32,651 nt of DNA from assembly GCA_902796925.1 (NCBI GenBank), contig CADBQW010000068.1, forward strand, positions 1-32,651, read 5' to 3'. This stretch comes from an uncultured bacterium (lineage in GTDB: Bacteria > Cyanobacteriota > Vampirovibrionia > Gastranaerophilales > Gastranaerophilaceae). Both the position numbers and the translations under genes were made by a program. Under the pieces are notes generated by a model. It searched no databases, was not told the DNA's origin, and worked only from the letters and a program-made list of their open reading frames with translations. Of this stretch, positions 24,171 through 26,091 are shown piece by piece. How positions within the stretch are numbered: position 1 is the first letter of the stretch; the number at the start of each line of letters is the position of its first letter.

Positions 24171-24199
24171 TTTACATTGGTTAAATCTTAACATATACT
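24171..24199 (+). promoter_or_regulatory. Promoter of rimP-nusA
   Basis: TTTACA (24171-24176), a 17-bp spacer and TATACT (24194-24199), 22 nt after the TPR stop. Transcription would begin near 24206, upstream of the hairpin terminator at 24224-24254, so the leader of rimP is about 90 nt and contains that terminator. Confidence 0.65.
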
Positions 24200-24223
24200 A
24201 ATCATATAGCAGTATTGCTTACG

Positions 24224-24254
24224 AAAAAAGAACGGGTTTCCTCGTTCTTTTTTT
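24224..24254 (+). terminator. Intrinsic terminator, probable attenuator in the rimP-nusA leader
   Basis: AAAAAAGAACG (24224-24234) pairs with CGTTCTTTTTT (24243-24253) around an 8-nt loop, with a seven-T tract (24248-24254). It ends transcripts from pth-TPR, but as it lies between the rimP promoter and rimP it would also attenuate the nusA operon. In Bacillus subtilis NusA limits its own synthesis by stimulating termination in the leader of its operon, the same layout. Confidence 0.8.
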
Positions 24255-24296
24255 CAGTAATAACCTATGTGTAAACAAAAACAGGAGGTGTAATTT

Positions 24297-24779
24297 ATGA
24301 AACAAGATATAAACAGACATGAAGTTATAGCAAATATTACCCCTGTTATTGAAAATACAGCTATGCGTTTTGGATATATTCCGATTGAGATAGAGTTTGT
24401 CAAAGAGAATCATCGTTGGTTTTTGAGAATATTTTTGTATTCCAAAGATAAAGATGTTACTCTTGACGATTGTGAAAAGGTAACCAGAAGTCTGGAAGAT
24501 TTTCTGGATGAACTTATTCCGGTCAAGTATTATCTTGAGGTTTCATCTCCCGGTTTGGAACGTAAGTTCAAATCTGATAAAGAGTTTTTAATATTCAAAG
24601 GCCGCCGGATTAGTTTAAAACTGAACGAACCCCTGGAAGGTGAAACAGAAAAAATATTTAAAGGTGAAATTCTGGATTGGGATGATAATGAAGGACTAAC
24701 TTTTTTCCGATTTGACGACGGAGTGGAATTGAAGATTCCAAAAGAAAATATCAGATCGGCAAAACTTTATATTGATTGA
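24297..24779 (+). CDS. rimP: Ribosome maturation factor RimP
   Basis: 160 residues. N-terminal alpha/beta domain (about 1-85) has LEDFLDELIPVKYYLEVSSP followed by GLERKF, the signature of the family; the C-terminal SH3-like domain (about 88-158) has FKGRRISLKLNEPLEG and ends in the typical AKLYID. RimP helps 30S maturation. A strong AGGAGGTG precedes the ATG. rimP is followed by nusA, the standard order in many bacteria; the rimP stop lies 25 nt before the nusA ATG. Confidence 0.96.
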   Translation: MKQDINRHEVIANITPVIENTAMRFGYIPIEIEFVKENHRWFLRIFLYSKDKDVTLDDCEKVTRSLEDFLDELIPVKYYLEVSSPGLERKFKSDKEFLIFKGRRISLKLNEPLEGETEKIFKGEILDWDDNEGLTFFRFDDGVELKIPKENIRSAKLYID

Positions 24780-24804: not shown

Positions 24805-26043
24805 ATGATTAAAATTGGAACAGCATTATTTGAAGCATGCGAAGAACTTGAAAGAGAAAGAGGAATTCCTAAAGAGGTAGTTATTGAATCTTTGAGAGAT
24901 GCAATGGTTGCCGCATACAAAAAACATATGCACATTAAAGATGCAGATAACATTACCGCAATAATGGATGAACAAGCCGGTGAAATAGGCGTTTTTGCAA
25001 CAAAACAAGTAGTTGATTCCGTTGAAAACGAAGAACTTGAAATTTCAATCGGACAAGCCTCAGAAATAGCTGATGGCGTTGAAGTTGGAGATGAATTACA
25101 GGTTGAAGTTACTCCTGAACAATTTGGTCGTATTGCAGCACAGTCTGCAAAACAAGTTATCACCCAAAGAATAAAAGAAGCAGAAAGAAATATGGTTCTA
25201 AATGAATTTTTAGATAAAAAAGGAACATTGACAACCGGTATTATTCAGAGAGTAGAACGTGGAAATGTTATTGTAAACATCGGCAAAACTGATGCAATAA
25301 TGCCTTCCCGCGAACAAATACCGGGAGAATACTACAAACCGGGCAACAGAATAAGAGTATTCGTTCTGAACGTTAAAGAAACAAACAGATTACCACAAGT
25401 AATTGTTTCCCACGCTCACGCCGAAATTGTCAGAGAATTATTTGAACTTGAAGTCCCTGAAATCGAAGACGGAATTGTTGAAATAAAATCTATTTCCCGT
25501 GAAGCAGGATACAGAACAAAAATAGCTGTCTGGTCAAATGATCCTGAAGTTGATTCTGTTGGAGCATGTATAGGACCTCGTGGCAGCCGTATTCAGACTA
25601 TCGTTACGGAATTAAAAAACGAAAAAATAGATATTGTAAGATATTCCGAAGACCCTGTTGAATATATCGTTAATGCCTTGTCTCCGGCAAGAGTAGTCTC
25701 AGTTGATATTATGGCAGATGATGAACTTGCACACGAAGCAATGGTTGTTGTTCCGGATGATCAATTGTCACTTGCCATAGGCAGAGAAGGTCAAAACGTA
25801 AGACTCGCTCACAAACTTACAGGTTGGAAAATTGACATAAAATCTGTTTCTCAAATGGAAAAAGCAGAAGCTGAAAATATTCAAAATTATTCGCAAGAAG
25901 AACCTCAAGAGGATTACGAAGATATAGAATCCGATGAACTGACTGAAGAAATCGCAGAAGAAATGAATCAACAAGAACTTGATGAAGAAGATATTCCTGT
26001 CGAAGAACCGATTGATGATTCAGTTGAAAATGAAGAAATATAA
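24805..26043 (+). CDS. nusA: Transcription termination/antitermination factor NusA
   Basis: 412 residues from the ATG at 24805, which has AAGGG 8 nt upstream. The frame is open to a TTG at 24772 overlapping rimP, but that has no ribosome site. Domains: RNA-polymerase-binding N-domain (1-about 120), S1 domain (about 130-195, TGIIQRVERGNVIVNIGKTD), KH1 (about 215-285, with VGACIGPRGSRIQTI) and KH2 (about 290-350, with LAIGREGQNVRLAHKLTGW). The C-terminus (about 362-412) is a very acidic tail in place of the AR domains of E. coli. It binds the RNA polymerase flap and promotes pausing and hairpin termination. A terminator follows. Confidence 0.97.
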   Translation: MIKIGTALFEACEELERERGIPKEVVIESLRDAMVAAYKKHMHIKDADNITAIMDEQAGEIGVFATKQVVDSVENEELEISIGQASEIADGVEVGDELQVEVTPEQFGRIAAQSAKQVITQRIKEAERNMVLNEFLDKKGTLTTGIIQRVERGNVIVNIGKTDAIMPSREQIPGEYYKPGNRIRVFVLNVKETNRLPQVIVSHAHAEIVRELFELEVPEIEDGIVEIKSISREAGYRTKIAVWSNDPEVDSVGACIGPRGSRIQTIVTELKNEKIDIVRYSEDPVEYIVNALSPARVVSVDIMADDELAHEAMVVVPDDQLSLAIGREGQNVRLAHKLTGWKIDIKSVSQMEKAEAENIQNYSQEEPQEDYEDIESDELTEEIAEEMNQQELDEEDIPVEEPIDDSVENEEI

Positions 26044-26062
26044 ATATTCTTTCTATATATTG

Positions 26063-26091
26063 AAAGCCGGATTATGCAATCCGGCTTTTTT
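26063..26091 (+). terminator. Intrinsic terminator after nusA
   Basis: AAAGCCGGATT (26063-26073) pairs with AATCCGGCTTT (26078-26088) around ATGC, followed by T to 26091. It closes rimP-nusA. Read from the minus strand the U-tract is poor (TTTCAATA), so it is a weaker terminator for the convergent fliR. Confidence 0.92.

Follow-up and report, generated by a model that had tools for sequence, protein, structure and literature searches.

Is the hairpin in the leader of rimP-nusA an attenuator through which NusA limits its own operon? The question is raised by a 32,651-nt stretch of DNA from an uncultured gut bacterium of the Gastranaerophilaceae, phylum Cyanobacteriota (hereafter the window), in which a first-pass annotation had described a promoter and an intrinsic terminator ahead of the two genes. 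This order of promoter, terminator and rimP-nusA proved real: the 91-nt leader folds with a dG of -26.0, whereas its shuffled versions average -13.3 (z -4.4; none of 200 shuffles as good), the segment 24207-24254 folds with -17.1 (z -5.0), and the arrangement is kept among relatives. The promoter and the 42-nt distance from terminator to rimP were also found as described. The promoter alone is not significant, with 57 promoter-like sites in the region compared with 48.4 ± 6.4 in shuffles. The coordinates of the features are collected in Table 1.

Table 1. Promoter, hairpins and genes of the rimP-nusA locus, numbered from the first nucleotide of the window.
Feature	Position	Strand	Description and basis
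Sigma-70-type promoter	24171..24199	+	-35 TTTACA, 17-nt spacer, -10 TATACT; 10/12 consensus positions
Predicted start site of leader	near 24205-24207	+	From promoter position
5' mini-hairpin	24208..24219	+	AGCA-GUAU-UGCU with conserved CAGUAUUG; fold and covariation
Leader intrinsic terminator	24223..24254	+	Folding, covariation
Terminator A-tract	24224-24229	+	Part of leader terminator
Terminator core stem-loop	24230-24247	+	GAACGGG-UUUC-CUCGUUC; folding
Terminator U-run	24248-24254	+	7 U; part of leader terminator
Shine-Dalgarno of rimP	24283..24289	+	AGGAGGT; sequence
rimP	24297..24779	+	Pfam RimP_N and C-terminal SH3 domain
nusA	24805..26043	+	Pfam NusA_N, S1, KH_5
Strong terminator 3' of nusA	26062..26091	+	dG -16.7, z -5.5

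The terminator 3' of nusA closes a two-gene rimP-nusA unit. In the leader terminator of the window the core stem is weak (-6.9 kcal/mol), and the U-run is good. Its loop had been given as 8 nt, but folding yields 4 nt because two further pairs (G.U and G-C) close it. The smaller hairpin upstream of it had been overlooked. A simple terminator scan did not list the leader hairpin, probably because A-U pairing prolongs the stem to take in the U-run. Within its own genome the exact hairpin pattern is confined to a single place, where, being palindromic, it reads on either strand; this led us to reject a repeated genomic terminator.

For comparison, 80 named relatives were retrieved with a NusA query, and further genomes were added. 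Among the 114 loci, 11 on the reverse strand were left out of the leader set; identical leaders were merged to give 83, L075 and L084 were without the core, and 80 distinct leaders were counted. The order of features was assessed with one gene caller and a single definition of terminator and promoter for all regions. In 68 of 69 rimP leaders a terminator is preceded by a promoter at a distance of 3-60 nt; elsewhere in these loci, 15 of 417 intergenic regions show this arrangement. The promoter-hairpin-gene order looked for in relatives was thus indeed kept. Eight of those 15 are themselves rimP leaders, whose GTG or TTG start was missed by the caller, and a ninth is L075, where an ORF has been inserted into the rimP leader; reassigning these nine misfiled leaders by position reduces the background to 6/408. 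The leaders of relatives read -35 TTTAC(A/T), -10 TATAAT, usually GACAGTATTGTC or GCAGTATTGC, then AAAAAGAACGGG-loop-CCCGTTCTTTTT and rimP. The terminator stem is conserved in sequence as AGAACGGG-loop-CCCGUUCU. A promoter matching at least 10 of 12 positions lies upstream of the hairpin in all 80 distinct leaders, and the distance from terminator to rimP ranges from 15 to 175 nt (median 33).

Two loci carry insertions. In L075 (640-1290) a GIY-YIG ORF and repeats lie between the leader terminator and rimP. L186 (G045 C16:51900-55000) carries the rimP leader twice in tandem, at a spacing of about 827 bp. The interval holds two small ORFs on the opposite strand, one of which weakly resembles a CopG antitoxin, and an ORF for a 23S rRNA intervening-sequence protein lies between rimP and nusA.

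The pairing of both hairpins was analyzed in two alignments, A1 (51 rows) and A3 (28 rows), consisting of hand-chosen carriers of the mini-hairpin. When the two-hairpin structure was imposed on the 28 leaders, 97.1% of cells were paired, and two-sided changes were found at 6 of 16 pairs, in 20 cells; shuffles gave 1.3 pairs and 3.9 cells, and slid alignments at most 3 and at most 5. With RNAalifold on the 51 leaders, both hairpins emerged unprompted. In these carriers, to which the covariation of the mini-hairpin applies, one of its pairs is A-U in 31 leaders, G-C in 17 and G-U in 3; its loop sequence is nearly invariant. The mini-hairpin is present in 60 of the 80 leaders and absent from 20. 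Non-Watson-Crick cells in the core stem of the 80 leaders are G.U (7), T.C (5) and C.C (1), with no A.C, and the third core pair changes from G-C to G.U in 7 of the 51 leaders. This bias towards G.U without A.C fits selection on the RNA of the transcribed strand. The feature is above chance because of the order conserved in 68 of 69 leaders together with the two-sided compensatory changes in both stems. Judged from the sequences, the promoter-terminator-gene order is kept, and RNA pairing and stem sequence are under selection.

The earlier remark that no competing antiterminator is evident also held. RNAalifold gives the two hairpins only, and in 15/80 leaders 12-17 nt separate the -10 box from the start of the hairpin motif; an upstream antiterminator is impossible in these, because next to no RNA precedes the hairpin. 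In 34/80 leaders, 30 nt or fewer remain between the U-run and rimP, which places the mRNA start upstream of the hairpin, and a promoter with a start after the U-run is found in 2/80. Many relatives thus have space for neither an antiterminator nor a later promoter.

Terminator strength was compared between 77 leader terminators and 211 that follow genes at these loci. Suboptimal hairpins and a distally interrupted U-run characterize the NusA-dependent terminators of B. subtilis, according to excerpts of PMC8060035. Both traits were found here, with a modest but significant shift. Leader terminators are slightly weaker than the others (median core dG -10.4 vs -11.3 kcal/mol, p 2e-5) and poorer in U at positions 6-9 (1.78 vs 2.28 of 4, p 1.7e-6), with T at position 6 in 51/80, at position 7 in 34/80 and at position 8 in 25/80. 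The first-pass description of the terminator as weak therefore stands as to direction, in hairpin stability and in distal U, but the difference is small. A weak, NusA-dependent terminator is modestly supported by these comparisons.

To define the reach of the leader, a covariance model was built from 28 leaders and applied with a threshold of E 0.01, at which 157 of 288 family genomes matched. The strong matches, judged by eye, are mostly single and adjoin nusA or contig ends. One representative each of 30 other genera of the family, most of which the model had missed or matched weakly, was located via NusA, and a terminator was found within 160 nt of rimP in 26 of them; changed stems are frequent, e.g. 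GAAACGG...CCGTTTC. In the remaining four (L128, L134, L135 and L136) no U-run follows the leader hairpin, which suggests a change of mechanism, and CAGTATTG is kept in L128 and L135 although the terminator is absent. Two of these four carry a GTAGTTTC...GGAACTAC hairpin.

A terminator precedes rimP or nusA in 26/30 representatives of other families of the order and class (4/30 without), and again in 26/30 from the rest of the phylum (4/30 without). The base rate is 150 of 417 intergenic regions of up to 350 nt at the family loci, and some of the counted terminators resemble chance (L165, L168, L193, L201, L209 and L211). In 20 of the 30 rest-of-phylum representatives the stem, judged by eye, has GTGGG...CC(C)(A/G)C. 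At six class loci no rimP was found ahead of nusA, and five of them (L174, L175, L177, L178 and L180; not L181) nevertheless have the terminator, which points to NusA rather than RimP; the terminator is thus linked to nusA even there. Stem sequences vary by family (GAAACGG, GAGAGTGGG, GAAGTGGG or unrelated stems), so that no single NusA recognition motif is common to all.

Other arrangements were seen in two groups. In some Cyanobacteriia (L198, L203, L214), CTTCTTGGAA lies upstream of GAAGTGGG in the rimP leaders, and ACTTC could pair with GAAGT to form a possible antiterminator. In another family of the class (L168, L169), the leader hairpins read GTAGACT...AGTCTAC and have little or no U-run.

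Rho was not detected above the cut-off in any of 48 genomes of the family or in 3 genomes of another family of the class; it was present in 12 of 117 genomes of the phylum sample. Because Rho was undetected in the 48 family genomes, the bulk of termination in the family probably falls to intrinsic terminators and NusA.

We conclude that the leader is probably a transcription attenuator of the rimP-leader type, in which NusA likely raises the efficiency of the stop and so limits its own operon. RNA polymerase would start near 24206 and transcribe the hairpin and then the U-run within about 50 nt. Termination there would be partial, with some polymerases stopping at the leader terminator and others continuing into rimP-nusA. 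No alternative fold would be involved; most likely NusA would make the stop more efficient, so that the operon would be shut when NusA is abundant and open when it is scarce. Feedback with NusA as the sensor would best explain the observations, and stimulation of two cyanobacterial intrinsic terminators by NusA in vitro is reported in excerpts of PMC13289151.

The attenuator may be real but respond to something else: NusG, RimP, nucleotide supply or an RNA-binding protein reading the stem or CAGUAUUG could be the sensor, or the leader could be a fixed dampener. We consider this unlikely, but its probability is appreciable. The stem is conserved in sequence beyond what pairing requires, which suggests a reader, and NusA-stimulated termination alone does not explain the mini-hairpin; NusG too favours terminators with distal U-run interruptions (PMC8060035, in excerpts). 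RimP, however, is disfavoured by the terminators that stay with nusA at the five class loci where rimP was not found, and NusA is the factor for which feedback on the same operon is documented, in B. subtilis (review PMC12288461, in excerpts). The motif AGAAC was considered as the reason for the conserved AGAACGGG but not adopted, as other families use different stems. We take AGAAC to be the NusA KH-domain motif known from work on M. tuberculosis boxC. It gave no match in a literature search as worded, and for E. coli boxC pairing is reported to matter more than sequence (PMC10250234, in excerpts). Termination of the upstream TPR gene, with rimP starting after the hairpin, is very unlikely to be the only role of the hairpin. 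That gene is on the same strand, with its end 75 nt upstream of the hairpin, and an A-tract together with a U-run is what a bidirectional terminator could have. Every one of the 80 leaders, however, has a strong promoter immediately ahead of the hairpin, a promoter with a start after the U-run is found in 2, at most 30 nt remain before rimP in 34, and in L099 the hairpin is present although the upstream ORF (309 aa) is on the opposite strand.

The palindrome could also be read as DNA, as an operator for a repressor acting just after the start site, since the arms of AGAACGGG-N4-CCCGTTCT are conserved and form an almost perfect inverted repeat. Departures from pairing, however, favour G.U on the transcribed strand and never include A.C in the core; together with the conserved U-run, and with the hairpin and U-run kept by families with different stems, they make this reading barely credible. 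Nor is it at all likely that the leader mainly yields a short stable RNA (about 50 nt) acting in trans, or that its hairpins chiefly protect the 5' end of the mRNA. The mini-hairpin is a few nucleotides from the predicted start with its loop nearly invariant, and the survival of CAGTATTG without a terminator in two genera would suit such a role, but the strong model matches adjoin nusA or contig ends, and GRCAGTATTGYC was not enriched elsewhere over a reversed control in 117 genomes. A leader peptide was considered and rejected. Possible start codons precede the hairpin in 70/80 leaders, mostly a TTG inside CAGTATTG; the frame from TTG or GTG of CAGTATTG is split 23/22/15 and closes ahead of or inside the hairpin in 13 of 60 leaders, so a peptide is unlikely because the reading frame is not kept across leaders.

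Alongside NusA-stimulated termination, the mini-hairpin may contribute to the function of the attenuator. Tentatively, with its near-invariant CAGUAUUG it could be a second sensor that sets the efficiency of the terminator, bound by NusA or another factor on leaving the polymerase; it might also work alone, because two genera keep it without the terminator. We regard this as possible, though doubtful. A genome-wide regulon search with the mini-hairpin pattern gave no enrichment. If the second-sensor reading were true, Gastranaerophilales would own a two-part nusA thermostat in a Rho-less lineage. If the feedback were true, the level of termination throughout the cell would be set by the NusA loop. 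The terminators found across the phylum, with their changing stems, form a natural series for asking what NusA reads in terminators, and the mini-hairpin adds a testable element to a leader first described 15 years ago.

The gene context of Rfam RF01770 (rimP) is the same as here. None of 21 relatives, the own genome included, scored above its cut-off of 47 bits, the window leader was unmatched in Rfam up to E 1, and ten tested loci were also without a match. A search of titles and abstracts found no publication on the leader in cyanobacteria or Gastranaerophilales. Autoregulation of the B. subtilis nusA leader was reportedly described originally by Mondal in 2016. The first-pass annotation had drawn on this case, and the excerpted text of a review (PMC12288461) does state that B. 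subtilis NusA autoregulates by stimulating intrinsic termination in the nusA leader. The two systems share a leader terminator in the same operon and distal U-run interruptions; dependence on NusA is demonstrated in B. subtilis, whereas here we infer it. At S. agalactiae rimP-nusA, as excerpted from PMC4448216, transcription stops at an intrinsic terminator 31 nt downstream of the start, and NusA feedback is proposed. That leader resembles those described here without the mini-hairpin; its termination was seen by RNA-seq, whereas in the present lineage it is predicted from sequence.

The closest counterpart is the rimP-leader of Naville and Gautheret (2010), which PMC2965389 presents as more ubiquitous than any other attenuator and as occurring in most of the species examined; NusA is proposed there as the factor. 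A first extension of the feedback loop to a distant phylum, as the first-pass annotation had it, can thus not be claimed, since the rimP-leader was already described as ubiquitous in 2010. Like the present leader, it is a 5' UTR terminator of rimP-nusA with a U-run and no antiterminator. It also has GGG(...)CCC at the top of the stem and lies 4-130 nt from the gene, two features common to the leaders here. GGG N2-8 C(C/T)C occurs in 66 of 77 leaders, and 4 of 211 other terminators contain GGG N2-8 CCC, the stricter form with which they were scored; the looser pattern is needed for the window, as its 3' arm reads CUC. The window's spacing to rimP falls within the 4-130 nt range. The conserved stem is longer here (AGAACGGG), and the unit consists of rimP-nusA only. 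The account in PMC2965389 does not report a larger conserved element, whereas here a covarying 5' hairpin precedes the terminator. The earlier reading of the locus is thus sound and mostly known; what is added is the phylum-wide series and, new in 60 of 80 leaders of a lineage without detectable Rho, the covarying 5' hairpin with CAGUAUUG.
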